The notes under the pieces were generated by a model, which did no database searches, was not told the origin of the DNA, and saw only the letters and a list, made by a program, of their open reading frames with translations. Shown here in pieces: positions 25,632 to 53,636 of a stretch of DNA of 64,000 nucleotides. The DNA comes from Gammaproteobacteria bacterium HGW-Gammaproteobacteria-11. Its GTDB lineage: Bacteria; Pseudomonadota; Gammaproteobacteria; Pseudomonadales; Pseudomonadaceae. A program made the translations under genes and the position numbers. Numbering within the stretch: position 1 is the first letter of the stretch; the number at the start of each line of letters is the position of its first letter. The stretch is taken from assembly GCA_002840055.1 (NCBI GenBank), contig PGZJ01000001.1, positions 62,001 through 126,000 of the forward strand. The letters are read 5' to 3'.

Positions 25632-25655
25632 CCAACCAAGGTTACACGCTTACAG

Positions 25656-25670: not shown

Positions 25671-25674
25671 CTGT

Positions 25675-26705: not shown

Positions 26706-27440
26706 TCAGCTGGCACAACGGTAACCCATCCAAGTCATAGCACAGCCGCTGAAGTTTCCAGACAGAACGAGATACACCTCCGGCTCAAGACCCAACTGCT
26801 TGTAGAGTCGCATTTTTATGAAGGCCAGTGCACTACCAGTAAAGTCTTTTCCAGCCAGAATAATCAACTGGGTGTGCAGTAAACAACCCTGGCTCTCTTG
26901 CGGGATATTCCTCAGCAATACTGACAGTGCGTCGGTAATGGAACGCTCTTGAACCTCAACAGCGCAGCCTGCCAATTCGACACCGAACCAATTCAACTCA
27001 TCGCTGCGGTCAACCAAAAGTATCGATTGCTCACGGGCCACGTAGAGTCTTGCCAAAAAATGCGCAGCCGCCTCAAGTGAATTCCATTGGTAATGCGTGG
27101 CGCCGGAACCCGCGACAGAAAATCTGGAGCCAATGTGATGAACATTAAGAACGCAGGCGTTATCCATCACATGATCTAACAAAGCAATATCGTCTGATGC
27201 CGTAAGCAAAATATGCAACTCATCATATTTTTTTCCCGGCAAGCTCGAGCCGGATATAAATGAATAGATATGATGCCAGCCCTGCTCTGCCTTCAGCATC
27301 ATCCTCAAATTGCAGCAGTGCCAATCCAGATGATTGAGAAACATAGCCCCAAATTCCGGGTCCTTCGACAGAACACCCACCGAGAAATGTGGTATTGAAA
27401 GGATGGCATCGGCCTGATTATGAAGAGTCTTCGCACTCAT
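26706..27440 (-). CDS. Hypothetical protein, second gene of an unknown operon
   Basis: 244 aa from the ATG at 27440, which follows the upstream 54-codon gene by only 2 bp. A longer frame starting at 27473 would overlap it. Sequence features: alpha/beta pattern with hydrophobic strands (ELHILLTASDDIALLDHVM, QSILLVDRSDELNWFGVEL, TQLIILAGKDF), no membrane helix, no recognisable catalytic motif. I do not recognise the family. Coupled position and shared operator suggest it works with the two flanking unknown genes. Confidence 0.7.
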   Translation of the reverse strand: MSAKTLHNQADAILSIPHFSVGVLSKDPEFGAMFLNHLDWHCCNLRMMLKAEQGWHHIYSFISGSSLPGKKYDELHILLTASDDIALLDHVMDNACVLNVHHIGSRFSVAGSGATHYQWNSLEAAAHFLARLYVAREQSILLVDRSDELNWFGVELAGCAVEVQERSITDALSVLLRNIPQESQGCLLHTQLIILAGKDFTGSALAFIKMRLYKQLGLEPEVYLVLSGNFSGCAMTWMGYRCAS

Positions 27441-27442
27441 GA

Positions 27443-27607
27443 TCAGACAACCCGCACGGGAGAGTTTATACATCGATAGCCAGGATATTGTGCTTCGGCG
27501 GTCAGCTTTGCCATATCAGCAGTAACCGCTTGGACATGGAAACTAAAGTTGGCTCGTGGACCTGCATTTGACTGTACACGCTGCATAAACACTTTATATG
27601 TGTTCAT
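27443..27607 (-). CDS. 54-aa small protein, first gene of an unknown operon
   Basis: Open frame of 54 codons starting MNTYKVFMQRVQSNAGPRAN and ending INSPVRVV. AAGGA stands 8 bp before the ATG. The amino-acid makeup is protein-like with a short alpha/beta pattern. It ends 2 bp before the next ATG, so the two are probably translationally coupled. The CGAC-N7-GTCG operator lies 48 bp upstream, the same distance as for the other regulated genes. The frame is too short for common gene callers. No family recognised; small first genes in such operons can be regulators or antitoxins, but nothing here proves that. Confidence 0.65.
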   Translation of the reverse strand: MNTYKVFMQRVQSNAGPRANFSFHVQAVTADMAKLTAEAQYPGYRCINSPVRVV

Positions 27608-27654
27608 TCGCTAATTTCCTTCGTTGATGACGAAGAAAGCGTACTGCACCCTTG

Positions 27655-28349: not shown

Positions 28350-29339
28350 ATGACAAATATCATCAAGAAGTCTTGGAATGCAGCAGAAGTAACGATTATC
28401 AAGCATGACTACCTGTGCGGGGTTCCGGTAGCCATGATTGCCGCAAAACTGGGTCGGAGCCGGAGCTCCGTCCGAGGAAAGGCAACCTGCCTGCAGCTTC
28501 AGCACGATGCCCATGGCAGCCAGTGGTTTTCGGCTGAAGAAGATGCCTTTATCCAGGCCAATGCCATGAGCATGACACGCGCCAACATCGCTCAGTCCCT
28601 GGGTCGCACTGAAGGCTCCATCACACAACGTGGCCGCCGGCTCAACATCTCCTTCGATAACCCAATCAAGAAAGCGCGCTACGAAAAAAATCATACCTTC
28701 TTTGAAGTGCCTACCCTTGAGAACTCCTATCTGGCTGGGTTACTTGCAGCTGATGGTTGGATTCGTCCATGCAATGGGGACAAGACCATTAACCAGGTCG
28801 GTATTTCACTCAAGGCAGAAGACGCCCACCTGCTCGACCATATGCGTCAAGCAACAGGGTATACCGGAGTCATTCGTGAATACTGTGTAGATGCGTACCC
28901 GCAGGCCGAACTGCGCATTTCCGGGGTGGAGCAGTGGCTTATCGATCTGAAGAAACACTGGGGCCTGATACCGGCCAAGACCTTCACTCTGCTCCCGCCA
29001 GATGAAAAGACCCTGACCCCCGACCAGGTGAAGGCGTTTCTTGTCGGTTTTATCGAAGGAGATGGCTACATAGCCATCAGCGGCGGCACACTCAAAGTAT
29101 CGGTAGTGACTGCCTCACCCGAGTTTGCTGACTGGCTTGAGCAGATCTTTATGCGACTCGGGCAAGCAAAACCAACTCGCAGCCTGCATGTAAACGGCAC
29201 AGCGCATTATCTCGATTTTTACGGCGCAAACGCCCGTCGCTTGTGCGCCAGTCTTATGGAGGTGGGCGTTCACAAGCTGATGAGGAAGTGGGATATCGCA
29301 CAAGCCGAAATCGCAAAACATGACCTGAAAGGTCATTAA
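28350..29339 (+). CDS. Free-standing LAGLIDADG endonuclease with N-terminal HTH/Myb-like repeats
   Basis: 329 aa. Residues about 1-105 hold two similar DNA-binding repeats (WNAAEVTIIKHDYLCGVPVAMIAAKLGRS and WFSAEEDAFIQANAMSMTRANIAQSLGRT). The homing-endonuclease core has two LAGLIDADG helices, YLAGLLAADGWI (about 128) and FLVGFIEGDGYI (about 230), each with its catalytic acid, so a single chain could form both half-sites. There is no intein or intron around it. It is divergent from a small repressor. It could be a free-standing mobile gene or a repurposed sequence-specific nuclease. Confidence 0.88.
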   Translation: MTNIIKKSWNAAEVTIIKHDYLCGVPVAMIAAKLGRSRSSVRGKATCLQLQHDAHGSQWFSAEEDAFIQANAMSMTRANIAQSLGRTEGSITQRGRRLNISFDNPIKKARYEKNHTFFEVPTLENSYLAGLLAADGWIRPCNGDKTINQVGISLKAEDAHLLDHMRQATGYTGVIREYCVDAYPQAELRISGVEQWLIDLKKHWGLIPAKTFTLLPPDEKTLTPDQVKAFLVGFIEGDGYIAISGGTLKVSVVTASPEFADWLEQIFMRLGQAKPTRSLHVNGTAHYLDFYGANARRLCASLMEVGVHKLMRKWDIAQAEIAKHDLKGH

Positions 29340-29436
29340 GACAACCCAATGGCAGGCTGCTGCGGCTGGATTGCCGGCAGCCGCCTTGATTCAAGCAATG
29401 CGCGTATAGCGATTAACCACAAAGATGAGAACCGCA

Positions 29437-29739
29437 ATGACACAGATGAATCTTGTACCCAAAGACCTTGCCAGCAATATCGAAGCAGGCATCCTGAAAG
29501 CGATTGAAGACATTATCACCCTGGGCGAGCTGAGCGATGCGTTTTCCGAAATCGAGGTCAATGTCAATCTGCTCCGTGATAACAGCAAAACGGAGATTAT
29601 CAAAAGCCTGGTTGCCGCCAGAGATGGTAGTACCAGGGAAGAGCTGAGGTGGATCAAGACGCCATTCACTCAGCCAGCGCCTGCCTTGCACGCGCCAGCT
29701 GCAGGCTCGAGCTGGGGACCTGTAACAGTGTGGTTTTGA
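29437..29739 (+). CDS. Hypothetical protein, 100 aa
   Basis: Starts MTQMNLVPKDLASNIEAGILKAIEDIITLGELSDAFSEIEVNVN. The first 70 residues are a confident-looking helical domain. The Pro/Ala-rich tail (TQPAPALHAPAAGS) is less protein-like. An in-frame ATG at 29425 is an alternative start. It is followed by a strong terminator. Family not recognised. Confidence 0.5.
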   Translation: MTQMNLVPKDLASNIEAGILKAIEDIITLGELSDAFSEIEVNVNLLRDNSKTEIIKSLVAARDGSTREELRWIKTPFTQPAPALHAPAAGSSWGPVTVWF

Positions 29740-29760
29740 GCCACATGCTAGTCAACCATG

Positions 29761-29791
29761 CGAAGGGGCCTGATTCAGGCCCCTTCGTTTT
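29761..29791 (+). terminator. Rho-independent terminator
   Basis: Perfect 12-bp stem CGAAGGGGCCTG with loop ATT, followed by TTTT. It ends the transcript of the 100-aa gene. Confidence 0.8.
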
Positions 29792-29949
29792 GAAAGGGAA
29801 GGTATGCGGTTATGACCTACAATTCGACGAGCGCGCTTTTAAAGCGACGCTGTAAGGGTTTTGTGCAATTTTGACCAGTCACCCCTGCCGGAATGACTTT
29901 GATAAAGTGAGACCTTGATTCTGCTTACCTTGCCCCCATCGGAGGAAGT

Positions 29950-30075
29950 ATGACCTCACAAGCCCTTTTCGCCTTGGCAGCCTTCGGCACCCTCTTCTGC
30001 GTTCTGGTCATCGCAGGGATTGGTCTGGTTGTTGCGCGTAAACTCGACCGCAAATACGGCACCGAAAACGAGTAA
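29950..30075 (+). CDS. 41-aa single-pass membrane protein
   Basis: Open frame MTSQALFALAAFGTLFCVLV continuing IAGIGLVVARKLDRKYGTENE. There is one membrane helix (residues 4-27) and a short charged cytoplasmic tail. GGAGGA stands 4 bp before the ATG. It lies just before umuDC. Typical of unannotated small inner-membrane proteins; function unknown. Confidence 0.6.
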   Translation: MTSQALFALAAFGTLFCVLVIAGIGLVVARKLDRKYGTENE

Positions 30076-30192
30076 TCGAACCTCAACCCAGCGCCGCGTC
30101 CCAAGGCATATCACCTGCGGCCTTGTTCTGACCTACAGGCTACCCCCCTTTTGCAACATGTTCAGGCTTGCCTACTGAAACCAAGAAGAATA

Positions 30193-30208
30193 CTGTATAT
30201 GCAACCAG
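30193..30208 (+). promoter_or_regulatory. LexA (SOS) box of umuDC
   Basis: CTGTATATGCAACCAG matches the CTG-N10-CAG LexA operator. It ends 15 bp before the umuD ATG, so it should cover the transcription start region. Confidence 0.8.
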
Positions 30209-30223
30209 CATTACGAGGTTGCC

Positions 30224-30664
30224 ATGTCAAATGCAGTCTTTATCGGCACGGTGACGCCATCCGGCACGCTCATCAGTTGCTTTGATACCCGCGTTCCTGC
30301 GGGCTTTCCCAGTCCGGCGCTCGACCATATGGAGCAGAAGATCTCTCTGGATACCCTGCTCGATGTTCATGCGCCCCACACTTACCTGGTCAGGGTATCC
30401 GGTGAGAGCATGACCGGAGCCGGTATCCATGATGGGGATATCCTGGTCGTCAGCCGCGCCGCTAACGCCAAACACCGCGATATCGTCGTGGCTGCCGTCA
30501 ATGGCGAGGTATTGGTCAAGCGCCTGATCCGTCGGGGCAAGCAAATCATTCTCCAGCCTGAAAACCCGGCCTTTTCTCCCCTGCATATCCTGGAAGGGGA
30601 TGAGCTGCAGATCTGGGGCGTCGTTCGCAACAGCATCCGCTGGCATGACACCGGTGAGAAATGA
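30224..30664 (+). CDS. umuD: UmuD, self-cleaving DNA polymerase V subunit
   Basis: 146 aa S24-family (LexA-like) protein. RecA filaments trigger self-cleavage at a small-residue pair near the N-terminus; PAGFPSPA (about residue 25) is the likely site. The catalytic Ser is in [11 protein letters not shown] and the Lys in [10 protein letters not shown]. The shortened product joins UmuC in Pol V. It overlaps umuC by 4 bp and is controlled by the LexA box. Complete. Confidence 0.95.
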
Positions 30665-31935
30665 CCAGTTCAACCAAGAGCTTTGCCCTGATCGACTGCA
30701 ACAGTTTCTATGCGTCCTGTGAGCGGGTCTTTCGACCTGATCTGGCCAAGATCCCGATCGTGGTACTCAGCAATAACGATGGTTGTGTGATTGCCCGCAG
30801 TGCCGAGGCCAAGCCTTTCATCAAGATGGGCGAGCCCTACTTCAAAATTAAGGATCAGTTGCGTCGCCACAACATCTTGGCGTTCAGCAGTAACTATGCA
30901 CTCTATGGAGACATGAGCGAGCGGGTCATGATGACCCTTGAAAGCCGCCTACCCTCAGTCGAGGTCTATTCCATTGATGAAGCCTTTGCCGACCTGACCG
31001 GCCTGCCTGAGCCACTGGATCAGCTCGGTTATTCCCTGCGCGCAGATGTGCTGCAAATTACCGGCATCCCGGTCGGTGTGGGTATCGCCAGCACCAAGAC
31101 ACTCGCCAAACTGGCCAACGCGGCCGCCAAACGCTGGCAACGCCAGACTGGTGGCGTAGTCGACATACGGGATCCGGAGCGACGGGACAAGCTGCTAAAG
31201 GCTATGCCGGTCGAGGATGTCTGGGGTGTTGGCCGGCGTATGACCGAACACTTGAAAGCAATGAACATCAAAACCGCCTGGGATATGTCGAATGCCGACA
31301 CAGCGACTCTCCGTAAAAGGTTCAGTGTGCTCGTTGAGAAAACCGCACGCGAACTTCGCGGAATCAGCTGTCTGGATATGGAACCAACAGCCCCGGCCAA
31401 GAAAGAGATATGCAGCAGCCGTGCATTCGGGCAACGGGTCTACGATCTCAAGGGCCTGCAGGAGGCCGTAGCCAGTTACACCACCCGAGCAGCAGAGAAG
31501 CTGCGCAAGCAGCAATCACTGTGCAAGGTCATTCAGGTTGGTGTCCGAACCGGACTGTTCAATCCGGATGAAAAACACTACGCACGCAGTCTGCAGTGCC
31601 ATCTACCCTACCCCACTGACGACACCCGACTTTTGATCCAGGCGGCCATGCAGGGACTGGATCATATCTACAAGGAAGGTCCCGCCTACGCCAAGGCCTC
31701 GATCATGCTGCTGGATTTATGCCAGCGCAATGAATACACACCCGACCTGTTTGCACCCAGTCAGCCGGGAGGCACCGATCACCTGATGCAAACCCTGGAT
31801 CAGATCAATCAGCGCTGGGGCAGAAACACCATCAAGCCCGCCCGCGTTCCTGCCTCGCCTGGATGGGGCATGCAGCGCCAGTTGCTGAGTCCGAGTTATA
31901 CGACGCGGTTAGATCAGTTATGGGTGGCAAGATAA
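30661..31935 (+). CDS. umuC: UmuC, Y-family translesion DNA polymerase
   Basis: 424 aa, full length. The palm motifs are intact: [31 protein letters not shown] and [12 protein letters not shown] with the catalytic DE pair. The little-finger region and a C-terminal tail follow. It is the catalytic part of Pol V and is coupled to umuD. UmuDC cassettes are common on mobile islands and plasmids of pseudomonads. Confidence 0.95.
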
Positions 31936-34753: not shown

Positions 34754-35473
34754 TTATATAGCCGGCACACACTCATCCGACATTGGAATCTTTGCCACAT
34801 CGCCACTGCCGGTGCAGGCCAGCGTGACCCGCATGCCTTCCGACAGACGTGCAGCGTAGCTGGTTTGATTACGCTCCAACTCGAACTGTGGCTGCATGAA
34901 GCGATTGGTCGAACCACGCAAGGTAATGTAAGGACGGCCTAGGAAGTTGGTGTTGATTGAATCAACCACGCCCGTCACCTTAAAGCGCTTCCCCTTGAAC
35001 TGCTGATCAGCTGCTACCGTATTGCGCTCATACGCTGCAGCCAGTTGTTGTGCTGTGACCTCTCGTAAAACCACAGGCTCGGCAGGCGCTGCTGGGGTGG
35101 CAATCTGGGACAACCGTGAGGATTCCCGCTGTGAGGCTGCACTGCTTGTGCTGTTACTCGTGCTTGTGCTCTGGGTCCGATCCTGATCACCCCCCATGGC
35201 GATCAAAACGGCAAGACCAAACCAGCCAAAGCCCACTATTCGCGCTAATGGGGTGTGGCCATTGCGCAGCAAGAACCAGACGAAGATGAAAGGCACAATG
35301 AAAATACCCAACCCCAGCAAAATGCCGACCTTGCGTTCCTCGGTCTTGGGCGCATTGTATGCCATGGCTGTTTGAGCCTTCAGACCTTGGCTAATAGGCG
35401 CACCACAACCGGGACAGGACACGGCCTGATCGCTGATCTGGTTACCACATTCACTGCAATTTATGAGTGCCAT
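34754..35473 (-). CDS. Zinc-ribbon membrane protein with an OB-fold (tRNA_anti-like) domain
   Basis: 239 aa. The N-terminal zinc ribbon has CSECGNQISDQAVSCPGCG (residues 6-24). Two helices follow (about 49-68 and 74-93). After a Ser/Thr-rich linker, the C-terminal OB fold reads VTAQQLAAAYERNTVAADQQFKGKRFKVTGVVDSI then the FLGRPYITLRG strand region. This is the tRNA_anti-like pattern (PF12869 type), which binds ligands or nucleic acid in other families. The OB domain would face one side of the membrane. A CGAC-N7-GTCG operator lies 50 bp upstream. Its last 72 codons are duplicated at 32699. Confidence 0.85.
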   Translation of the reverse strand: MALINCSECGNQISDQAVSCPGCGAPISQGLKAQTAMAYNAPKTEERKVGILLGLGIFIVPFIFVWFLLRNGHTPLARIVGFGWFGLAVLIAMGGDQDRTQSTSTSNSTSSAASQRESSRLSQIATPAAPAEPVVLREVTAQQLAAAYERNTVAADQQFKGKRFKVTGVVDSINTNFLGRPYITLRGSTNRFMQPQFELERNQTSYAARLSEGMRVTLACTGSGDVAKIPMSDECVPAI

Positions 35474-35522
35474 GCTTTTTGTTCCTTGTGATGAATGCCT
35501 GCGCGAAGATAAGCCTGCAATA

Positions 35523-35537
35523 CGACAAATCAGGTCG
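35523..35537. promoter_or_regulatory. CGAC-N7-GTCG operator upstream of the zinc-ribbon gene (site 4 of 6)
   Basis: CGACAAATCAGGTCG lies exactly 50 bp before the ATG at 35473. The inner base pair differs (A/G), but CGAC and GTCG and the 7-bp spacing are kept. Confidence 0.6.
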
Positions 35538-35542
35538 CATGA

Positions 35543-36799
35543 TCACCACCCCGGATAGCGAAGCCAGATTGCTGAGCCCGCATCGGTACTGTCATCCGGG
35601 TCATAGCAGTGAGGTACAAAGGTTATGTCGGCGGCTATCTGGGTGATGACCTGCCGAAGTTCAAGTTGACTCAACCAGTCGCCAGGAATGGCACTTGGTC
35701 CATGGATCAAGCCCAGCAGATTGCCCGCTATAAGACCGGTGCTGTCGCTATCACCACTGTGATTTACGGCCAGGACAACACCCTCTTCGAGATTCTCAGC
35801 GCTCAACGCGCACCACAGCCCAATCGCCAAAGCTTCCTCGGCTATCCAGCCGCCACCCAAGCGCTCAATGGCTGATGGCGTTGGTCTGATTCCCTGGGCA
35901 TGCAGTTCCAATACGCTCTCGACCAGCTGACGAGTTTCTTCCATGCCAGGGAGATCGCCATGGCGTGCGAGAGACTCAACGCAGGCCTTATGCAACGACA
36001 GATCCTCTCGCCAGATAAGCTTGAGAATGTCGGCGAATAACCCTGCTGCGAGATAGCCGGTGGGGTGGCCATGGGAGAGTCGGGCTGTCTCGGAGCCCAG
36101 TTCAAAGGGATTGGCGAAAAAGGCACAAGCGGCAACACGCATGACACCGCCACAGCCTTTGCTGGCGTTGACGGCAAATTCGCCGAAACGGCTGCTTTGA
36201 CTCAGGGCAGAAAGGCAGGTGTTACCTGGTGCGCGCCGGGACCACAGTTCAGATTCGGTGATCAGCCAGCCGTCCATGCCCACCTTGGTAGAGGCTGGAA
36301 CATGCTGTGTGGCAAGCCAGCGCAGTAGAGCGTGATGAACCACCGATGCCATATCACAGATCCCTCTGGCTTCGCCTCGTACGGTCGCACGAATCAAGCC
36401 CTCGGCGGTAAACAGCATCATTTGCGTGTCATCGGTGATGGCACCCACGCGGCCATAAGCCGGTACCATCTGACGGATGCCGGCCGGACCGAATTGCTTT
36501 TGAATAGTTGCCCAGTCACTGAACTCTACTGCTGCGCCTAATGCATCACCCACTGCGCCCCCTAGCAAACAGCCCAGGATGCGTGCTGGGTCACTCACAG
36601 CTAATTCATGCCGGTCATCTGGTTGCCATTCAGTATCAAAACTGTCTGTAAGTGGAATCCGGAAAATCCGTCCATCATCACGCCGGCCCCAGATCAAAGG
36701 ACGCGGGTCTGTGTAGTCAGTGTGAATGACTCGGAGACTGTCACCGCTAGCGGGGGCTGTAATGCGGTCAAAAAGCTCAGGCCTGAAGGTTCCATTCAT
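35543..36799 (-). CDS. ADP-ribosylglycohydrolase family protein
   Basis: 418 aa from the ATG at 36799, which has AGGAG 8 bp upstream; the frame extends to 36841 through the operator. Family metal-site motifs are all present: GAVGDALGAAVE, ITDDTQM and NHSGDSDSTG, which bind two Mg ions. These enzymes remove ADP-ribose from proteins or nucleic acid, as DraG and ARH3 do. The N-terminal ~75 residues (ELFDRITAPASGDSLRVIHTDYTDPRPLIWGRRDDGRIFRIPL) are an extra unassigned domain. The gene is divergent from the WYL regulator and shares its operator. It could reverse an ADP-ribosylating toxin or a defence-related ADP-ribosyl mark; no transferase partner is proven here. Confidence 0.9.
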   Translation of the reverse strand: MNGTFRPELFDRITAPASGDSLRVIHTDYTDPRPLIWGRRDDGRIFRIPLTDSFDTEWQPDDRHELAVSDPARILGCLLGGAVGDALGAAVEFSDWATIQKQFGPAGIRQMVPAYGRVGAITDDTQMMLFTAEGLIRATVRGEARGICDMASVVHHALLRWLATQHVPASTKVGMDGWLITESELWSRRAPGNTCLSALSQSSRFGEFAVNASKGCGGVMRVAACAFFANPFELGSETARLSHGHPTGYLAAGLFADILKLIWREDLSLHKACVESLARHGDLPGMEETRQLVESVLELHAQGIRPTPSAIERLGGGWIAEEALAIGLWCALSAENLEEGVVLAVNHSGDSDSTGLIAGNLLGLIHGPSAIPGDWLSQLELRQVITQIAADITFVPHCYDPDDSTDAGSAIWLRYPGW

Positions 36800-36846
36800 A
36801 GGCGTACTCCTGCTGTGTTTGAAGGTGACAGCCTGCACCACCTATG

Positions 36847-36861
36847 CGACTATTTCTGTCG
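36847..36861. promoter_or_regulatory. CGAC-N7-GTCG operator in the WYL/ADP-ribosylglycohydrolase divergent promoter (site 5 of 6)
   Basis: CGACTATTTCTGTCG is the core of a perfect dyad with 9-bp arms CTATGCGAC and GTCGCATAG (36842-36866). It lies 23 bp before the WYL start and 48 bp before the glycohydrolase start, so one dimer could control both. Confidence 0.75.
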
Positions 36862-36883
36862 CATAGCCCAACAAGGAGCCGTT

Positions 36884-37882
36884 ATGAGCCAGCGCGATAC
36901 CCTGTTCCGTCACTTGGCCATCCTGCAGATGTTGCCCAGATCTCCGCACAGTCTCAGCACCACCACCATTGAAATGCGCCTGGTGGAACAGGGTTACACC
37001 ATGACGTCGCGTTCTATCCAGCGTGATCTTGAAAAGCTGGCAGATCACTTCCCGCTTGAGTGCAACAAGGGCGGCAAACCGTTCAAATGGTGCTTTGTCG
37101 CCAACTACAACAGTGATCTCCCCGCATTGGATACGGTTACCGCCTTGACGCTGGTGCTGGCAGAAGAAGCTGTTCGCGGCTTGTTGCCCAAGGTCGCCAT
37201 GGACAAGATCAGCTACAAGTTCCAGAGCGCGCGTAAACACCTGGACGGACTGCAAGGCAACGATTTTTCGCAATGGAGTCGCAAGGTACGTGCCATTCCG
37301 AATGGCAAGTCACTGATACCAGCCGAGATCAAGGCGACAATTTGGGAGGGGCTGACCGACGCCCTGCTCAATCATTACGCTGTGGATGTCGACTATCTGA
37401 GTCGACTTAAAGGCGAACTCAAGCGCTATACACTGCATCCTCTTGGGCTGGTAACCCGAGACAGCAGCTCCTATTTGCTGGCTACTGTGAATGACCATGA
37501 TGATGTCCGCCAATTCGCCCTGCACCGCTTCCGCTCGGTCACAGAAAGCGTCAGCCTGTATCGGGCTCAGCCAGACTTTGATGTGCAGCGCTACATTGAC
37601 CAGGGTGCGTTCGGCTTTCCGATGGAAGATGAGCCTATAAGGCTGGTTGCGCGCATTGACTCAACCGTGGCCTGGTTACTCTCGGAAACACCCCTGAGTA
37701 AAGATCAAAGCCTGTCCGAGCCCGACACGCAGGGCTGGGTACAGCTTGAAGCGACGGTGCCAAATGACCAGCAAACCCGCTGGTGGGTCATGGGCTTTGG
37801 CGCAAACATTGATGTGATTGAGCCGTTGGCCTGGCGTGAACATATTCTTGAGCAGGCCAGATCTATTGTTGGCCGCGCCTGA
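36884..37882 (+). CDS. WYL-domain transcriptional regulator (BrxR/CapW-like), putative master regulator of the island
   Basis: 332 aa from the ATG at 36884 (AAGGAG 5 bp upstream); an upstream in-frame extension covers the divergent gene. The N-terminal winged helix reads RDTLFRHLAILQMLPRSPHSLSTTTIEMRLVEQGYTMTSRSIQRDLEKLADHFPLE. A WYL-type domain follows at about 150-230 (VDVDYLSRL, RYTLHPLGLVTRDSSSYLLATV, FALHRFRSVT). A C-terminal extension domain follows. This layout is that of BrxR and CapW, dimeric repressors of BREX and CBASS operons that bind inverted repeats. A perfect dyad of that kind is in its own promoter and recurs at five other promoters in the window. Confidence 0.92.
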   Translation: MSQRDTLFRHLAILQMLPRSPHSLSTTTIEMRLVEQGYTMTSRSIQRDLEKLADHFPLECNKGGKPFKWCFVANYNSDLPALDTVTALTLVLAEEAVRGLLPKVAMDKISYKFQSARKHLDGLQGNDFSQWSRKVRAIPNGKSLIPAEIKATIWEGLTDALLNHYAVDVDYLSRLKGELKRYTLHPLGLVTRDSSSYLLATVNDHDDVRQFALHRFRSVTESVSLYRAQPDFDVQRYIDQGAFGFPMEDEPIRLVARIDSTVAWLLSETPLSKDQSLSEPDTQGWVQLEATVPNDQQTRWWVMGFGANIDVIEPLAWREHILEQARSIVGRA

Positions 37883-39383: not shown

Positions 39384-39761
39384 TCAACCAGGCCAGGCAC
39401 CCCGACGAATTGCTGGCATGTCATCTACGGCATGGGCATAGAGATAAATCCAGGCCTCGCCAAAGCGGGTGCTTAAACGAGTTCGGCGGTAGAAGGACAA
39501 TTCCGGCTGGCCGGGTATGAACCCTTCCAGCCGATCCAGTCGTTGCAGGGTGACCTGGTTGACCGTGTAGACTTCTACAACAATCCCCTGAGATTCCTCA
39601 AGCTTTGCCCCCGGGAAAAAACCCAGATCATAAAGCGTTACCTGCGCCAGCGTATCCTCACCCAAAAATATCGCATTGCTCAGATAGCCGTGATTCGGCA
39701 TGCCCTGTTTCAGGCTACCATACACAATCACCTTATGCATGGCTGGGCCATCCATGCTCAT
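39384..39761 (-). CDS. Gamma-glutamylcyclotransferase-fold (AIG2-like) protein
   Basis: 125 aa. The fold signature is clear: KVIVYGSLKQGMPNHGYL (the YGSL loop), LYDLGFFPGAK, VVEVYTVNQVTLQRLDRLEGF and FYRRTRL. The conserved acid is in DRLEGF. Family members cyclise gamma-glutamyl amines or related adducts. Its start overlaps the AAA-ATPase stop (ATGA), so the two are translationally coupled and may act together. Confidence 0.85.
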   Translation of the reverse strand: MSMDGPAMHKVIVYGSLKQGMPNHGYLSNAIFLGEDTLAQVTLYDLGFFPGAKLEESQGIVVEVYTVNQVTLQRLDRLEGFIPGQPELSFYRRTRLSTRFGEAWIYLYAHAVDDMPAIRRGAWPG

Positions 39762-41803
39762 AGCCAGGCACCCTGCTCTACAGCGTCATGCTGGTTACGA
39801 AGTTGATGCTCCTCGCGCAGTGCAGCCAGGACATTAAAGGCATTACAGGCTGATCCCATGATCCGCATACGCCGCTGTACACAGGCAAAGTCGCCGGGTG
39901 TCAGGCTCAATGCAGCAAGGCTGGCCTGTAAGCCCTTGGCCTCATCCTCGCTGTCGGGGCCAATCAACTGACAGAAAAACGCCCAGGCCTGGGCAGGCTG
40001 CAAGAAATTGAAGGCCACCTTGAGGTCCAAACGCCGCAACACCGCCCCATCCATGGCTGGAAGGCGGTTGGTGGTCAGTACAACCACGCCGGAAAAGCGC
40101 TCAAGCTGCTGTAGAAACTCATTCACTTGGCTTTTCTGCCAATGCGGACCAGCCGCCATCCGCGATGGCAACCAGGTATCGGCCTCATCAAACAGCAGTA
40201 CTGCCTTGCGTTTTTCTGCATCTGCAAAAGCCGCGGCAATCGCTTGCTCGGTAAAGCCAACCCAGGGCTGTAACAAGTCCGATCCGGACACAGCAATCAA
40301 AGGGCATTCCAGGCTTGCGGCAAGGTAACGGGCATACTCACTTTTGCCGGTGCCAGAGGGGCCGTAGAGACAGATTCGCCCCTCAGCGCTTCTTCGCAAA
40401 CCTTCAGCCAAACGTGTCAGATCTCTATCAGCGTTGGCCAGATGGGGCTCAAAACAGCTTTTTTGAATTGGCACGGTTGGCAGCCATGGCAGTCCCTGGG
40501 CACGCAGACTTTCATCCAGCAAAAGCTTGAGACGCTGTTCGTTCGTCTGGGCATCGGCATCACCCAATATGCCAACCACTTTCGCGGCCTGGTGAAAGTG
40601 CCCCGGTTGCACAGCAGGTTGCCTGCTCACCTCATCCAGCCAGGTCTCGGATAAGGTCACATCGCTGAAAAAAACCTTTGCCAACTTCCCGCGCTGCGAA
40701 TCATCCAACTCAGGCATTTCCAGCACCAGGTCAAACCGGCGGATAAAGGCCGGGTCGAGGCAATTAACGGAGTTGGTTAACCAGAAGGCAGGTAACGGGT
40801 TATTTTCCAGCAGATGATTCACCCAGGCCTTTTGACCACGGCTGCCATCAAAGCCAAACACGTCCTCAATTTCATCAAACAGAATCAGGGTGTCTGTTTT
40901 GTCCTTGAGCATGCGCTGGCAATAGCGATAAGCCGAAAAACGCTTTTGCTGAGAAATCGGCATGTCGTCAAGGTCGTTGCAACGCACCTCCTGAAGCTCC
41001 GCTCCCAGGGTCATGGCAAGAAGCCTGACCAGCTGAGTCTTACCGGTTCCAGGCGCACCATGCAGAAGGACATTGACACCTGTCTGGCGCTGCCTGCAAG
41101 CATTGTGCAGATAGTCGTGAATCAGATCCCGCTGCTCTGCCCAATAATCAAAATCATGCCATTGGACCAAGGCAGCGGGAGCGCGGTATGAATAGCGCTG
41201 CAATAAACCTTCGACAACCTCGTCGTCATACAACAACTGGTCAGTTAATCCGTCGTCCAGCTCGAGCGCATCACCAAACAGACCGCCAGGCGTTACAAAT
41301 CCGGCTTGAAAGAGCATGCCGCTTGGGGCTAGTGCTTTGCGAACATCGCTGTAAGACATTCTGAGCGCGGTGGAGATACTACGTTGTAGCTGGCAACGGG
41401 AAACACGATTACTGGTACACACCATATCTGCGAAGATTTGCGAACTCTCGCGTAGCACCAAGAAAGCCAGAACTGCCTGCTCCTGTTCGTTGAGTGCAAA
41501 AACACGATGCAACTCATCCAGATTGCCCCTCAAAGGCTGCCCAAGCTCAGGGGGAGACTGTTCAAGCTCACGACGACGGCGAACAAGGAGTTGATAACGC
41601 GCATCATCGTCCAGATCCCCGAGCTCATCATTATCAATACCCAACAATGCCCAGGTCTCATCACCGGCAAAGCGATGCTGGCCAAGCAGAGTCCGCCACA
41701 GGTCTCCTTCCAGCAACAAACGCAGGCTCCACAGAGCCATCATGCCTGAGCCGTTAGTGACTGAAGGGGGCGTGGGAGACATTAGAGAGGCAATAGTCGG
41801 CAT
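39758..41803 (-). CDS. Double-AAA+ ATPase
   Basis: 681 aa with two complete AAA modules. The first has Walker A HGAPGTGKTQ (near residue 247) and Walker B TLILFDEIEDVFG; the second has YGPSGTGKSEY (near 482) and AVLLFDEADTW. The ~200 aa N-terminal region is helical. The first module resembles chaperone-like ATPases of the SpoVK/FtsH side of the family. A CGAC-N7-GTCG operator lies 50 bp upstream. The coupled downstream gene is a gamma-glutamylcyclotransferase-fold protein, perhaps its effector or substrate; that is inference. Confidence 0.85.
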   Translation of the reverse strand: MPTIASLMSPTPPSVTNGSGMMALWSLRLLLEGDLWRTLLGQHRFAGDETWALLGIDNDELGDLDDDARYQLLVRRRRELEQSPPELGQPLRGNLDELHRVFALNEQEQAVLAFLVLRESSQIFADMVCTSNRVSRCQLQRSISTALRMSYSDVRKALAPSGMLFQAGFVTPGGLFGDALELDDGLTDQLLYDDEVVEGLLQRYSYRAPAALVQWHDFDYWAEQRDLIHDYLHNACRQRQTGVNVLLHGAPGTGKTQLVRLLAMTLGAELQEVRCNDLDDMPISQQKRFSAYRYCQRMLKDKTDTLILFDEIEDVFGFDGSRGQKAWVNHLLENNPLPAFWLTNSVNCLDPAFIRRFDLVLEMPELDDSQRGKLAKVFFSDVTLSETWLDEVSRQPAVQPGHFHQAAKVVGILGDADAQTNEQRLKLLLDESLRAQGLPWLPTVPIQKSCFEPHLANADRDLTRLAEGLRRSAEGRICLYGPSGTGKSEYARYLAASLECPLIAVSGSDLLQPWVGFTEQAIAAAFADAEKRKAVLLFDEADTWLPSRMAAGPHWQKSQVNEFLQQLERFSGVVVLTTNRLPAMDGAVLRRLDLKVAFNFLQPAQAWAFFCQLIGPDSEDEAKGLQASLAALSLTPGDFACVQRRMRIMGSACNAFNVLAALREEHQLRNQHDAVEQGAWL

Positions 41804-41852
41804 GGTCAGTTACTCCTTGGCTGAAAGAGTGACTTATTCTGACCATGTTGTG

Positions 41853-41867
41853 CGACGTATTTGGTCG
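41853..41867. promoter_or_regulatory. CGAC-N7-GTCG operator upstream of the AAA-ATPase operon (site 6 of 6)
   Basis: CGACGTATTTGGTCG sits in a dyad with 6-bp arms TGCGAC and GTCGCA (41851-41869), exactly 50 bp before the ATG at 41803. Confidence 0.65.
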
Positions 41868-41911
41868 CAGCGACCAGATTCTGGCCTAGGTAGCCTGACC
41901 ATCTTGATTAT

Positions 41912-43476: not shown

Positions 43477-44487
43477 CTATTTAATTCCCTCCCCTTGTGT
43501 CGAAAGTCTGTCGAAAAGCGGATTAAGACGCACAGCTTCAGACAAATGATCCGGCGACAAATGCGCATAACGCAGGGTCATTGTCAGCGATGAGTGGCCA
43601 AGCACTTTCTGCAGAGTAACGATATTACCTCCGTTCATTATGAAGTGACTCGCGAAGGTATGACGCAAGACATGCGATGCCTGCCCCCTTGGCAACTTGA
43701 ACGAAACCAACTCCAAAGCTTTGCGGAAACCATTCATGCAGTTGGTGAAGGGTCCGTAGCGCTTCCAGTGCTGAACCAGCTGGTTGAGAAGAGCCGGAGC
43801 AATAGGGACGGTTCGAACACGCTTTGATTTGGTATTGGCAAAGACTATAGAGCCTTGATTGATACGATCCGGGGTCAGAGCTTGAGCTTCACCCCACCGG
43901 GCACCTGTTGCTAAACAGATACGCGCAATCATTGACGGATGAGGTGACAAGGGGCGAGAGTCTAGAGCGGACAAGAGCTCTTCGATCTGATCAAGCGTCA
44001 AATAAGACAGTGTTTTTTCCTGTAGCTTGATTGGCCGGAGCTTGATAGGAGACGGGTAATCGATAACGCCCATTTCATGAAGCTGGTTGTAAACAGCCTT
44101 AAGATAACCAAGTCGGTTATTGGCTGTTTTAGGTGCCAGGCCCGCTTTGAGCTGTGCAGACCTCAAGCGCGCCACAGCAGAGCCATCAAGGTTACGAGCA
44201 ATCGGGTTTCCGAGGGATTTGGCATACTCGACAAGAATTGCATGGCGCTGGGTCCCATTGGATAGGGTGAGGCCATGGAGCTGATACCAATGCTCGATCA
44301 GCTCGGAAAGCCTACGCTTGTCCTTTGGTTTAGGAGACCAATCCGGCTCATGTGAAACCTTAGTCCGGCAGGTAGCCTCAAAGCGCTGGGCTTCACCCTT
44401 GGTCTTAAAGGTTTTGCGGAAACGCTTACCTTTGATGGGTTCAACATCCGCCTTCCAGCGGCCATCAGGGAGCTTGGTTATAGCCAT
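43477..44487 (-). CDS. Tyrosine recombinase, Pf-type phage integrase
   Basis: 336 aa from the ATG at 44487, which overlaps the replication gene stop by 1 bp (TGATG). The catalytic set is present: Arg in CLATGARWGEAQAL, HVLRHTFASH (His-x-x-Arg-His) and Tyr in LRYAHL. The N-terminal arm-binding part (ITKLPDGRWKADVEPIKGKRFRKTFKTKGEA) is as in Pf-like integrases. It sits next to attL, and would catalyse tRNA-Gly integration and excision with the small HTH protein at 52055. Confidence 0.93.
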   Translation of the reverse strand: MAITKLPDGRWKADVEPIKGKRFRKTFKTKGEAQRFEATCRTKVSHEPDWSPKPKDKRRLSELIEHWYQLHGLTLSNGTQRHAILVEYAKSLGNPIARNLDGSAVARLRSAQLKAGLAPKTANNRLGYLKAVYNQLHEMGVIDYPSPIKLRPIKLQEKTLSYLTLDQIEELLSALDSRPLSPHPSMIARICLATGARWGEAQALTPDRINQGSIVFANTKSKRVRTVPIAPALLNQLVQHWKRYGPFTNCMNGFRKALELVSFKLPRGQASHVLRHTFASHFIMNGGNIVTLQKVLGHSSLTMTLRYAHLSPDHLSEAVRLNPLFDRLSTQGEGIK

Positions 44488-45785
44488 CAGACAGCCCTGC
44501 CCCACCTGACGTGCCGCTCTTCAAGAAGGCTTTTGATATGGCGGTAAATGTCCTTTTCAGTCATGTCCTTGGATGCGTAATGATCGCGGATGACAGGCCA
44601 GCAATCCCATTCCTTTAAACACTCAAAGGCTCTGGTTGCGCCTACTCGCTCCCGTGCCAGCAGGCTTATGAAGTTTCCCAGGAATAGCTCAACGTTCTTG
44701 CCACTGAAGCCTTTGGAGGTCTTGTAATAGCGCTTGTACTCGGTTTCATCGATCAGGGAGTCAACGGGGATATCAATCCGAACATCATCACGGATCAGGG
44801 TCCAGAAGGGATCATAGTAGCCGGGACGTGAAAGCAGCTTGAAAGACTGCATACCATAACGCCACAGGCCGTCTAGATGCGCGCAGAAGCCTGCAAAGGT
44901 CTGCGTGTCGATCGGCGCGCCGGTATGCACATCGACTGAGCCGCTGGCGAACTGCTGAATCACGGAGTGGTGATAGCGTAGCTCGATACGCCAGACAGTC
45001 TGGTCAGGGTCATAGTTGTCAGGGCATTCAGCGTCAAAGGGGTCATCCGTGCGACGCCAGACGCCTTGCCAGTAATCGAGCTTATCAGCGGCCTTGGCCT
45101 GTTCGGTCTTGTTGTAGATACACAGCTGAATGCCGCTGGCAGAGCCGAACATGGAGGTTTCACCTCGCCCGTAAACGCTGGACTTGGTAGCCCATTCAAG
45201 ACTGTTGATGCCGGAGATATCGCGGTGATTGCGTGCACGGCAATGCATGCGGGCGACCAGATCGGCTGGTGGTTGCCAGCCCTGCAGGTCAAGTGCCAGG
45301 TGAACGGCACACTGGTTGACCTCGACATGGCTCAGGACGTGGGAGGCGTAATAGTCCATGCGCTCCTGTAGGCGTTCGGGCGACAGGTTGTCGATGGCAT
45401 GGGGTGACACTTCAATTTTCAGGTGAGGCCCGAGGGTATCGACCTTGGCATTGAAATTCTTGATCAAGAGGATGAAGCCAAGGTCAGCGTTTTGCAGCTT
45501 GTACTGATAACCAGAGTCGCGGCCTACACGGCCTGCATGCCAGCGCTGGCCTGCAAATTCAACAATGGTGCCGGGCTTCTCAAACAGGGCAAGGGCTTCA
45601 ATACGGATCAAGCCACGGTAAAGCTGACGAACCGTATCGACACCACAGCGGAGAATACGGACGCCTGAGAGGTCGGTAAATTTCAGAGTCGTGGGATCAA
45701 GAAAAAGACGACCAGCATTATCTTCATCAGCGGTCAGGTTGTTCAGTCTTTTCTGATCAAGTGGCTTAGACATTCCATGCTCCAA
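44487..45785 (-). CDS. Inovirus replication initiation protein
   Basis: 432 aa (427 from an in-frame ATG at 45773). It matches the large replication proteins of Pf1-like phages, which nick the double-stranded form and start rolling-circle synthesis. Visible features are a FILLIKNF strand, the YYASHVLSHVEVNQCAVHLALDLQGW region with the His/Asp metal-binding look, and a later YKRYYKTSKGFSGKNVELFLGNF stretch. Upstream of the integrase in the same operon. Catalytic tyrosines are not assigned with certainty. Confidence 0.85.
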   Translation of the reverse strand: MEHGMSKPLDQKRLNNLTADEDNAGRLFLDPTTLKFTDLSGVRILRCGVDTVRQLYRGLIRIEALALFEKPGTIVEFAGQRWHAGRVGRDSGYQYKLQNADLGFILLIKNFNAKVDTLGPHLKIEVSPHAIDNLSPERLQERMDYYASHVLSHVEVNQCAVHLALDLQGWQPPADLVARMHCRARNHRDISGINSLEWATKSSVYGRGETSMFGSASGIQLCIYNKTEQAKAADKLDYWQGVWRRTDDPFDAECPDNYDPDQTVWRIELRYHHSVIQQFASGSVDVHTGAPIDTQTFAGFCAHLDGLWRYGMQSFKLLSRPGYYDPFWTLIRDDVRIDIPVDSLIDETEYKRYYKTSKGFSGKNVELFLGNFISLLARERVGATRAFECLKEWDCWPVIRDHYASKDMTEKDIYRHIKSLLEERHVRWGRAV

Positions 45786-45826
45786 TGCAGATTATTGCGA
45801 AATGTTAGTTCTGTTTATCTGACGTG

Positions 45827-47209
45827 TTACAGGGACGTCAGCGGCGCCGCGCCACTGGTGAGCGCATCGGCTGCGCCGAAACCCTCACCAGTGGCATCGG
45901 GCGCGGTGAGGTCATATTGGTTCATCAGCTCAGTGGCTTTGTGATCGGTGCCGGTGTGGATGCGGGCACTGATCAGCACAACCAGATTGGTTGTTCGGGT
46001 ACGTTCTGAGGTGCGCTGAAAAATACCGCCTACCAGTGGGAGGTCAGAGAGGATCGGGACGCGGGAGACGGACTTATCACTTTGCTCGGAGCGTAAGCCA
46101 CCAAGAAGAACCCCTTCGCCATTTTGCAGCTGAACCCGCGTCATCACCTTTCGGGTATTGGTGATGATGTCTGCAGCGGTGGTGTCATCCGATACGGAGG
46201 AAGCGGATTGCATGACCTGGAGTTCGATAGCATCAGCCGGGGTGATAAAGGGGGTGACCTCAAGGGTGACGCCTACATCCTGCCGGACGATGGTCTGAAA
46301 GGGATCACTGGCCGGTGTAGAAGCGCTAGTGGTCTGGCCGGTAACAAAAGGAACGTTCTGGCCGACCACAATGGAGGCTTGCTGGCGGTTCAGGGTCAGT
46401 AGCTGGGGTGTGGAGAGTATGCGATTTCGTCCGGTGGATTTGACCGCCTGCAGGAAGGCCGAGAGTGTTGGACCGGAGAAGATGACACTAAAGCCGAGAT
46501 CGGATCGGTCGGAGGGTCTAACCGCGGTTCCAGACACGGACAGGCGATCACTATCAAGACCGACGTTCAGGCCAAGGGCTTCGAAGTCATCATCGGCCAG
46601 CTCGGCCACCACAGCGGTGATAAGGACTTGCCGCCGGGGTCGGTCTATTTCTTCCAGTACTGCAGAGACGACATCAAGTTGACTGTCTGTGCCAGAGACA
46701 ATGACGGCATTTGACGTGGGAGACGGGGTAACCGTGGATCGGCTGGGTGAGGCGCTTTCATCGGTTCTGGACAGCAGGACATCGCGCACGGCCTGATAAG
46801 CAAAGTCCGATTGCAGGTGCTGCAACTGAAACACGCGGGTAGTGAGGTCGGGTGATTCGACTATAGGGGCAGCACTGATGCGAAGAGTGGAGCTGGTGGA
46901 CGAGAAGTACAAGCCAGAGGAAATGACAGAGTCAGCCAGTAAGCGCTCAAGCTGCTGGGGTGACTCATAGATGGCGAAAACTGAAATGGGGGTTTGACCA
47001 ATATCGGCCCCGACCACAATGGATTTGTTTAGCTGGGTTGAGGCGAAGTCTACGAAATCTTGCAGGGTGGCGTCATAGAATTCGATTCGCTCAGCGGCGA
47101 TTGAGGCCCGAGGACAGAACAGCAGGGACAAAGTGACAACAATGGCGGTGATAAAGACAAGGTAAGAGAACAGGACCTGACACAAGCGAATATGTTTATC
47201 TCTCAGCAT
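45827..47209 (-). CDS. Phage secretin (pIV-like outer-membrane channel)
   Basis: 460 aa. A signal/membrane helix (LFSYLVFITAIVVTLSLLF) is followed by N-domains (FYDATLQDFVDFASTQLNKSIVVG; SNAVIVSGTDSQLDVVSAVLEEIDRPRRQVLITAVVAEL). The secretin pore domain follows (LLTLNRQQASIVVGQNVPFV and LLGGLRSEQSDKSVSRVPILSDLPLVGGIF). It lets the filament leave through the outer membrane. Some Pf phages lack their own secretin and use the host's; this one carries it. It follows zot by 9 bp. Confidence 0.92.
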   Translation of the reverse strand: MLRDKHIRLCQVLFSYLVFITAIVVTLSLLFCPRASIAAERIEFYDATLQDFVDFASTQLNKSIVVGADIGQTPISVFAIYESPQQLERLLADSVISSGLYFSSTSSTLRISAAPIVESPDLTTRVFQLQHLQSDFAYQAVRDVLLSRTDESASPSRSTVTPSPTSNAVIVSGTDSQLDVVSAVLEEIDRPRRQVLITAVVAELADDDFEALGLNVGLDSDRLSVSGTAVRPSDRSDLGFSVIFSGPTLSAFLQAVKSTGRNRILSTPQLLTLNRQQASIVVGQNVPFVTGQTTSASTPASDPFQTIVRQDVGVTLEVTPFITPADAIELQVMQSASSVSDDTTAADIITNTRKVMTRVQLQNGEGVLLGGLRSEQSDKSVSRVPILSDLPLVGGIFQRTSERTRTTNLVVLISARIHTGTDHKATELMNQYDLTAPDATGEGFGAADALTSGAAPLTSL

Positions 47210-47218
47210 GATCGGCGC

Positions 47219-48313
47219 TCAACGGTAGACGGTGATGGAGTGAGTGCCATGGACTAGAACGGCCTGTTTGGGGCCGTGGTCGATGACGTCTATTGACTGG
47301 CTTGTAAGGTCTGAATCAGGGATTCGGCGTCCGTCAGCATCTGTAAAAGCGTAAGACACCCCATCAGGAGTACGGATATAAGCAACAATGCGCAGAGAGC
47401 CCAGATCATCAAGGGGCGTGGTGCTAACCTCGGATATCGGCTGAGCAGGAGCGCTAACTGCAGCCGGCTGATTAACCAGAGCGATAGCAGCGAAGACAGG
47501 CACACAGAGAAGAGCAGCACAGGCACCCCCTAGAAAGAATGCATTGATGATGCGGAAGCGGCGGAAAAAGATTTTGGTGGTACGCATATAGAACCCCAGA
47601 TTGCGTGAGGCACGAGGAAGCGCCCGATACCAGTAACCGGGCGGCAACATGGAATAGGAGCCTTTGTCGTAATCCTTGTTGTATTCCTGCGTGGTGTCGT
47701 AATAGGAATAGAACTCTTCGCCCCGGTAATACCAGTCATCGACCTTGGGGCTGTTGAACTTGGCCCCGTATTTGACGATGGCCTGATGCATTTTCGGGAG
47801 CCGCCCTTTCCAGAATCCGAGCGACAGCAAGCGGCCGAGAAAGCCAAAGGGAAAGGGAACCTTGATCTTGTCCCAGCGGTTGATATAGACGACATGCTCG
47901 GCAATGGACTCGCGGACCTGCTTGTCGATCACGCCGACATTCTGGACACAGAGCCAGAGGTCCCAACGGCGCTTACGCAGGAACAGAAAGAACTTCAACA
48001 GATCGGTGCGCCCGCCTTGGTTCCAGTCACGGGAGTTGAGCCAGACCCCGGCTTCATCAAGGAAGATGCCGCCGAACATTTCTTCATCGTAGGTCTCATA
48101 ACCCACACCAAGGCCGAGCAGGTCATCAGCGGTCGGCAGATCAGGCAGGCGAACAAGGTTAGAGTGTCTATTGCCGCGCTTGCACAGCTTGTTCATGAAC
48201 ACATCGACATTGACGGCCACACGGCGGCGCTGTTTCAGATACTCGATGATCTTGATGATGCACAGCAGGGTTTTACCTGCTCCGAGCTTGCCGGTAACGA
48301 TATAGACGGCCAT
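47219..48313 (-). CDS. Zot-family phage assembly ATPase (pI-like)
   Basis: 364 aa. Walker A GKLGAGKT is at residues 7-14 and GGIFLDEAGVWLNSRDW holds the Walker B region. A membrane helix near residues 255-278 (FFLGGACAALLCVPVFAAIALV) anchors it, leaving a ~85 aa periplasmic tail. It drives extrusion of the virion together with the secretin. The ATG overlaps the stop of the pVI-like gene. Confidence 0.93.
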   Translation of the reverse strand: MAVYIVTGKLGAGKTLLCIIKIIEYLKQRRRVAVNVDVFMNKLCKRGNRHSNLVRLPDLPTADDLLGLGVGYETYDEEMFGGIFLDEAGVWLNSRDWNQGGRTDLLKFFLFLRKRRWDLWLCVQNVGVIDKQVRESIAEHVVYINRWDKIKVPFPFGFLGRLLSLGFWKGRLPKMHQAIVKYGAKFNSPKVDDWYYRGEEFYSYYDTTQEYNKDYDKGSYSMLPPGYWYRALPRASRNLGFYMRTTKIFFRRFRIINAFFLGGACAALLCVPVFAAIALVNQPAAVSAPAQPISEVSTTPLDDLGSLRIVAYIRTPDGVSYAFTDADGRRIPDSDLTSQSIDVIDHGPKQAVLVHGTHSITVYR

Positions 48314-53633: not shown

Positions 53634-53636
53634 TCC

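Follow-up and report, generated by a model that had tools for sequence, protein, structure and literature searches.

Computation on the window, by which we mean the whole 64-kb stretch of DNA analysed (G000:C56:62001-126000), reveals a repeated operator element with a fixed -10 hexamer, conserved in relatives, associated with the WYL regulator family and laid out before multiple targets. We read the operators of these composite promoters as sites of the WYL-WCX protein encoded at 36884-37882, which would activate the genes behind them as one regulon (probability about 0.7). Binding of this protein to the operator is very likely, activation rather than repression is likely, and a ligand that is ssDNA or a related molecule, as in its relatives, is about an even bet.

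The core of the operator, CGAC-N7-GTCG, shows eight matches in the window against 0.81 expected, this being the mean of 100 dinucleotide shuffles, in which the largest count is five and none reaches eight; the repetition is thus beyond chance, as the original prediction held. The six sites of that prediction are all where it had placed them and all in front of genes, but it had omitted two further matches, at 37390 and 58483, both within coding sequence. Alignment of the window sites extends the core to a 19-bp palindrome, TGCGAC-N7-GTCGCA, of which 12 of 12 positions are matched at 41851 and 36845, 11 at 27653 and 35521, 10 at 25654 and nine at 9302. By their -10, the window operators point toward minus-strand genes. 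The sites and the genes around them are the following.

1877-3232, minus strand: McrC-like protein (Pfam McrBC, 2e-106)
3229-5724, minus strand: McrB-like AAA protein (Pfam AAA_5)
5721-7052, minus strand: HsdS specificity subunit (Pfam Methylase_S, 4e-23)
7042-8967, minus strand: HsdM, type I DNA methylase (Pfam N6_Mtase, 2e-109)
8964-9254, minus strand: possible 96-aa ORF with a TTG start, unproven as a gene, its stop overlapping the hsdM start (ATGA)
9302-9320, minus strand: operator AGCGACAGATTCTGTCGTG (9 of 12), with TATGAT at 9288-9293, 1 bp closer than elsewhere
18681-21857, minus strand: AddA-like UvrD helicase-nuclease (Pfam UvrD-helicase, PDDEXK_1)
21857-24592, minus strand: AddB-like PD-(D/E)XK protein (Pfam PDDEXK_1)
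24759-25610, minus strand: Sel1-repeat protein (Pfam Sel1)
25654-25672, minus strand: operator AGCGACACTAGCTGTCGCT, with -10 TAACCT at 25639-25644
26706-27473, minus strand: 255-aa protein without a Pfam family, with homologues near the operator in two relatives
27443-27607, minus strand: 54-aa ORF behind the 27653 operator, with small proteins similar to it by eye downstream of the operator in L365 and L377
27653-27671, minus strand: operator TACGACAGATCTTGTCGCA, with -10 TACGCT at 27638-27643
34754-35473, minus strand: zinc-ribbon / tRNA_anti-like protein (Pfam)
35521-35539, minus strand: operator TGCGACCTGATTTGTCGTA, with -10 TATCTT at 35506-35511
35543-36799, minus strand: ADP-ribosylglycohydrolase (Pfam ADP_ribosyl_GH, 2e-65)
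36845-36863, no strand assigned: perfect operator between the ADP-ribosylglycohydrolase and WYL genes, with -10 CAGGCT at 36830-36835
36884-37882, plus strand: WYL-WCX regulator of 332 aa, ATG at 36884 (Pfam WYL, WCX; N-terminal helix-turn-helix-like part)
37388-37406, no strand assigned: core match not of the operator kind, inside the WYL coding sequence, without flanking G/C and without -10
39384-39761, minus strand: gamma-glutamylcyclotransferase-like (GGACT) protein (Pfam GGACT)
39758-41803, minus strand: AAA protein with two AAA stretches (Pfam AAA, 3e-37)
41851-41869, minus strand: perfect operator, with -10 CAGAAT at 41836-41841
58481-58499, no strand assigned: core match not of the operator kind, inside ORF 57141-58553, without flanking G/C and without -10

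The distance from operator to start codon at the window sites is 43-47 bp: 43 bp from 25654 to the ATG at 25610, 45 bp from 27653 to the ATG of the 54-aa ORF at 27607 and likewise at 36845, and 47 bp at 35521 and 41851. The 9302 operator is 47 bp from the TTG ORF and 334 bp from hsdM itself, and the shorter distance holds only if the 96-aa TTG ORF overlapping the hsdM start is real. The -10 of the 36845 operator, CAGGCT, faces the ADP-ribosylglycohydrolase gene, and behind the 27653 operator the 54-aa protein is followed by proteins without a Pfam family. Homologues of the Sel1 protein in two relatives (L056 and L061) are also downstream of the operator or of a variant of it. Left of the McrC gene, the same strand encodes a large helicase-nuclease (Pfam AAA_11, MTES_1575) and HsdR (L049:12675-15776). 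A seventh island copy of the operator is 7.4 kb left of the window (L049:12569) and precedes, with a leader of about 200 bases, genes encoding a 529-aa protein and a 1345-aa AAA protein. The seven sites span about 49 kb, and a spread over the island had indeed been predicted.

In the own assembly (3.24 Mb in 82 contigs, about 76% complete) the short core has 71 copies and a reversed-pattern control 226, and the perfect 19-mer only three, all on contig C56 within 50 kb, namely the left copy outside the window and those of the ADP-ribosylglycohydrolase/WYL promoter and of the AAA operon. The window has five core matches followed by a -10, whereas first-order Markov resamples, 100 in all, average 0.07. 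As for equally placed copies before housekeeping genes, which would have counted against the original prediction, the five composite promoters of this genome with at most one mismatch are all inside the island, and with two mismatches there is one locus outside it, C55:4315. The window shows no tRNA and no Rfam family at the gathering score. An RNA hairpin was set aside as a reading of the operator, its arms, judged by eye, conserving sequence instead of covarying; so was a LexA box, which we take not to fit.

PADLOC, run on submitted proteins that left out HsdM and HsdS, recognises HsdR, the WYL domain and stretches of helicase or AAA type, finds a weak resemblance to LeoB in the 529-aa protein, and has no match for the ADP-ribosylglycohydrolase, Sel1, AddB-like, zinc-ribbon and McrC proteins. 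To call every target a defence gene would be an overstatement.

Among 101 non-redundant operator-ATG pairs, xAxxxT is found at offset 28 from the first base of the operator in 80, at 34 other offsets tested (19 to 53) in 0-14, and at the same offset on the opposite side of the operator in 24; the remaining 21 pairs lack a -10 at the fixed place. These pairs have an ATG 30-59 bp behind the site, at least two of four flank bases and an open frame; they remained from 123 after near-identical operator-gene pairs were dropped, and some of them are chance ORFs that are still counted, genes and start codons in the loci of relatives being taken from a simple longest-ORF script, not from annotation. 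With one vote per target family, the -10 is at offset 28 in 17 of 29 families and in at most three at any other offset. The composite promoter of 34 bp is TGCGAC-N7-GTCGCA-N9 followed by the -10 hexamer, yAnncT. No -35 consensus is found in the 80 operator-gene pairs that have a Shine-Dalgarno-like stretch. When the last T of the hexamer is taken as -7, the operator covers about -40 to -22, its arms flank the -35 position, and its right arm, GTCGC, is at about -27 to -23. In the own island the -10 spacing is exact at five of the six window operators and at the left site, and is off by 1 bp at 9302. The hexamer is absent from the three WYL genes of the target-family vote set when read toward the WYL start, so the operator near WYL seems to serve the divergent gene.

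Comparison with solved structures places the WYL protein, by profile and predicted fold, closer to PafC/DriD than to CapW/BrxR. A profile search of the PDB gives 1.7e-5 for PafC, 3.9e-5 to 1.5e-4 for DriD chains, 0.055 for CapW and 0.29 for BrxR. The AlphaFold model (pLDDT 79, pTM 0.47, domain placement uncertain) matches DriD in Foldseek at 2e-15, PafBC at 4e-14, and CapW and BrxR at about 2e-8, with low TM-scores over the query, about 0.3-0.4. The N-terminus of the model shows three helices and two strands, giving the HTH-WYL-WCX architecture of the DriD/PafBC type, and no Pfam HTH hit is found in the protein at 0.001. With the protein alone, phmmer finds no PDB chain at 1e-3, BrxR 7qfz included; by the BrxR-family homology threshold (BLASTP E<1e-5), judged from phmmer and the profile value of 0.29 rather than from BLASTP itself, the protein falls outside that family.

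According to PMC12340889, DriD is a WYL activator of Caulobacter crescentus whose site overlaps the -35 and keeps a fixed distance to a weak -10, whose targets include the nuclease genes recJ and bapE, whose ligand is ssDNA, and whose site near driD activates the divergent operon and not driD. DriD and PafBC, the closest solved relatives, both bind ssDNA and activate, according to PMC12340889 and PMC11804915. The protein studied here resembles DriD in its HTH-WYL-WCX architecture and best fold match, in a palindrome over the -35 at a fixed distance from the -10, and, by what PMC12340889 describes for DriD, in having several targets that include nuclease genes and a site in the divergent promoter beside its own gene. 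It differs in the length of the site, the pseudo-palindrome of DriD having 20 bp (PMC12340889) and the operator here 19 bp, in that the targets here are mostly restriction, CRISPR, RecBCD/AddAB-like and ADP-ribose genes, and in an identity of about 16% over the fold alignment. PafBC is a mycobacterial DNA-damage activator in which a -26 motif replaces the usual -35 contact (PMC11804915); the right arm GTCGC has a comparable position here. PafBC also shares the WYL-WCX architecture, with PafC the best profile match, and sigma adaptation is its mode. We take TGTC and TAnnnT in the RecA-NDp motif to be spaced as in the element here. Unlike the PafBC heterodimer on a non-palindromic motif (PMC6789036), the present system shows a palindrome and a single gene. 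If the operator is the WYL site, its position over a poor -35, at a fixed distance from the -10, is of the kind expected for DriD/PafBC-type activators.

The original prediction had likened the protein to BrxR and CapW, in which case it would block RNA polymerase at these promoters until released by a ligand, a reading that the aligned -10 makes the less likely one. CapW is a repressor, as that prediction had it; the operator overlaps the promoter, and in the Halopseudomonas clade the site is about 20 bp from the WYL start, which permits self-repression. BrxR, also a WYL protein, acts as repressor for a defence island and has two boxes on pEFER; its homologues are associated with defence systems (Picton et al., 2022; PMC9122601). 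A WYL regulator in a defence island and an inverted-repeat operator are features in common with BrxR and CapW. However, the boxes of BrxR consist of 11-bp repeats separated by 5 bp, and PMC9122601 reports no further boxes on pEFER. A repressor does not require that 17 unrelated target families keep one exact -10 spacing, or that their promoters lack a -35 consensus, and both BrxR and CapW match the protein more weakly in profile and fold than PafC/DriD. The fixed -10, the missing -35 consensus, the PafC/DriD match and the divergent layout resemble activators, and the BrxR/CapW analogy is probably wrong; an operator this close to the -10 could also be compatible with repression, a reading that we consider unlikely. 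RptR, which represses the promoter of a type I RM island, is similar in that one regulator with a conserved palindrome serves restriction islands, and dissimilar in being a small repressor with a 6-bp TAGCTA site (PMC12255303). Activation is preferred because of the fixed -10, the operator over the -35 region, the profile and the fold.

The operator is conserved around homologues of the WYL protein. At E <=1e-30 the protein has relatives in 80 genomes of the 398 in the family, a count that takes in the own genome; in genome contigs a single-protein query found none and an alignment query found the loci. Fifteen of 30 WYL loci examined, with flanks of about 1.5 kb, hold a site with at most one mismatch. 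Of 79 named WYL-homologue loci, to which several genomes contribute more than one, 58 have GCGAC-N7-GTCGC, with 76 sites in all; when its arms are spaced 3-6 or 8-13 apart the counts are one to six, and 29 other arm orders at spacing 7 have at most 18. These loci belong to Halopseudomonas, Halomonas-type genera, Marinobacter, Ectothiorhodospira, Azotobacter, Pseudomonas and others. The inner bases of the operator vary among them, as is expected for a dimer site. GCGAC-N7-GTCGC is absent from 21 loci, 12 of them of the full 21 kb and nine shorter; Zobellella taiwanensis, Hydrogenovibrio, two Marinomonas and several of the Halomonas type are among these 21. One operator at many promoters, linked to the WYL gene, is therefore what is seen: it is conserved around WYL homologues and also stands before other genes.

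In relatives the operator precedes many unrelated genes at similar distances, and the targets with operator and -10, when clustered, form 40 clusters of 135 distinct targets, named by the Pfam matches of their members. The largest cluster contains 26 copies of one gene, 23 of them 663-818 bp before the WYL start, with Pfam DUF2201_N in one member. Further clusters contain 21 AAA proteins, 18 RecC, 12 ADP-ribosylglycohydrolases, six of a 139-aa protein and four zinc-ribbon-like proteins; clusters of three are a second AAA type, metallophosphatases and the Sel1 protein, clusters of two include Sir2 and an inositol-phosphatase-like protein, and among the singles are Cas3 and a protein that we interpret as SbcD-like from its Metallophos match. 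The regulon part of the predicted defence regulon is supported by these targets, and the word defence is too narrow, recC (exodeoxyribonuclease V) being a recurrent target. The same operator before several transcription units in one genome, as expected of a regulon, is found in the own genome, G398 and G098. The Halomonas MAG G398 has five perfect sites, all on a single contig, where they spread over 67 kb and precede recC (Pfam Exonuc_V_gamma), AAA-GGACT, an AAA gene, the WYL operon and Sir2, and a one-mismatch site is between ADP-ribosylglycohydrolase and metallophosphatase genes. In G098 the WYL site is at 3.79 Mb and a type I-E cas3 site at 1.15 Mb of the same 4.04-Mb contig. Among 11 I-E-like cas3 loci read, perfect sites are found in G098 and G074, whose WYL proteins are 82 and 75% identical, and a one-mismatch site in G111; no site with the core is found at I-E cas3 of G149, G143 and G010, which have a more distant WYL, or at I-E-like cas3 of G198, G244, G043, G068 and G193, which have no WYL at the cut.

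Perfect composite promoters are present in 36 of 80 WYL-positive and 21 of 318 WYL-negative family genomes (Fisher 5e-15, a test that ignores genome relatedness and is only partly independent because the pattern came from loci overlapping the tested genomes), and the reversed composite pattern, counted by eye, matches in 19 of 398, the genome lists and this control having been copied by hand. WYL-positive means E <=1e-30, and G222, with two WYL genes by profile, is scored negative. After removal of ten genus genomes with matches at recC only, the counts are 33 of 80 and 14 of 318; of the remaining WYL-negative composites, at least those of G129, G148, G152 and G089 are also at recC, and those of G006, G078 and G182 lie inside ORFs. 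Within the genus, 14 WYL-positive genomes have between them 17 perfect sites that are neither at recC nor in an ORF and 23 WYL-negative genomes have none, by a hand count that leaves out seven in-ORF perfect sites (three WYL-positive, four WYL-negative), which include a phage-baseplate/VgrG-type protein (two copies, G082) and a PALP-family enzyme (G165; Pfam). That the recurrent perfect genus sites of, for instance, G157, G125 and G035 are coding sequence was rejected, the recC search showing them to be recC promoters. The 44 WYL-positive genomes without a perfect composite promoter contain many WYL proteins that are only 29-45% identical and may prefer other letters.

The recC promoters speak for a different reading, in which a non-WYL factor reads the composite promoter, with recC as its core target and WYL as one more regulated gene. 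Among the 30 recC loci read, out of 37, a perfect operator is present in nine of 12 WYL-positive and seven of 18 WYL-negative loci (Fisher 0.07, again ignoring relatedness). Five of these seven WYL-negative genomes, G125, G082 and G165 (99% complete), G190 (93%) and G193 (91%), have no PF13280 hit at E 0.001, G082 being a single contig, and a profile search of the recC flanks retrieved found no WYL. The association with WYL that had been predicted is supported, and the claim of one WYL regulator is weakened by these five genomes with no detected WYL, because of which this WYL may not be the sole reader of the site. Their intact sites need another explanation, be it recent loss, a WYL gene missed by the search or another factor, and the composite recC promoters of G129, G148, G152 and G089, without WYL at the cut, fit the last of these. 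However, promoter sites other than recC track WYL, both in the genus and in the family after removal of the recC-only genomes; the recBCD loci of G192 and G222 carry their own WYL genes beside the sites; and in four further WYL-negative genomes the recC sites have one or two mismatches, which looks like decay after loss of WYL. A non-WYL reader in place of the WYL protein is thus improbable. The recC of the own genome is without a site. In G192, a second WYL-like copy in two ORF pieces is found beside recBCD, with an operator copy inside (L365:19043-19672).

That the repetition of CGAC/GTCG arose by chance or from the composition of a GC-rich genome has practically no probability left: the 71 core matches in the assembly, against 226 of the reversed pattern, show the short core alone not to be specific, but for the 19-mer plus -10 the spacing, arm-order, reversed-pattern and -10-offset controls and the shuffles refute it.

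Under the preferred reading, activation by the WYL protein, a homodimer would, by analogy with DriD, bind the palindrome at about -40 to -22 and recruit the housekeeping RNA polymerase where a promoter has a -10 and lacks a -35. The WYL domain probably senses ssDNA or some other nucleic acid that arises when DNA is damaged or phage DNA is broken down, and would switch on the type I restriction/McrBC, Sel1-AddAB-like, ADP-ribosylglycohydrolase and AAA-GGACT operons and others as one regulon, which in relatives would also take in recC(BD), type I-E cas genes, an SbcD-like gene and Sir2. RecBCD and AddAB enzymes produce ssDNA and fragments, and ssDNA made by them would, speculatively, close a feed-forward loop. 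More tentatively, many Gammaproteobacteria may have an SOS-independent, ssDNA-triggered regulon in which a DriD-like WYL activator brings together DNA-end processing (RecBCD, AddAB-like, SbcCD-like), restriction, CRISPR-Cas and ADP-ribose/NAD enzymes.

The reading predicts activation by a WYL protein, whereas CapW and BrxR repress, and would link the transcription of RecBCD genes with that of restriction and CRISPR genes; if it is true, DNA breakdown during infection raises the whole immune set, and new defence genes join by gaining the 34-bp composite promoter. Operator and fixed -10 together form a signature sharp enough that candidate members of the regulon can be listed from a genome, and the ADP-ribosylglycohydrolase, AAA-GGACT, 54-aa and 139-aa proteins behind the promoter become defence or repair candidates. 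Full-text literature searches, in a collection that leaves out most subscription papers and bioRxiv preprints, found no description of the operator or of a gammaproteobacterial WYL regulon with recBCD.

Several further features are found in the relatives. In Halomonas-type genomes the operator and WYL are separated by a gene for a protein of about 210 aa (L306:17515-18144 and relatives), with DUF2201_N, a putative metallopeptidase, in one tested member, and a Halomonas island shows an MmeI-like restriction-modification protein about 2 kb behind the AAA-GGACT genes (L305:12121-14859). Two operators in tandem are found at L111, L116 and L120. G046 and G105 have four WYL hits each (G046:C15; G105:C18, C34, C35), with three WYL-family genes within about 11 kb in G046; these paralogues have 31-56% identity, and several have operator copies nearby. 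G338 contains four near-identical perfect composite sites on C13, C58, C82 and C271, possibly a repeat element. A small-protein family of about 54 aa (MNTYKVFMQRV...), recognised by eye and without a Pfam family over the cut-off, is found behind the operator or beside recD (27443-27607, L365:6036-6248 and L377:16872-17075).

In the window itself, a RiboL-PSP-HEPN protein adjoins a GmrSD_N restriction protein (52992-54842), a possible defence pair at which no operator core is found. Right of the 9302 site, at 9500-9650, there are two TTGCAATATATATTGC inverted repeats and related TTGCAATA pieces. Between operator sites, at 28350-31935, a gene encoding a LAGLIDADG_3 protein comes before genes for a UmuD-like protein (Peptidase_S24) and a UmuC-like polymerase. 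Consecutive integrase, secretin and Zot-like genes at 43477-50231, to the right of the AAA operon and an EAL fragment, resemble an integrated filamentous phage.
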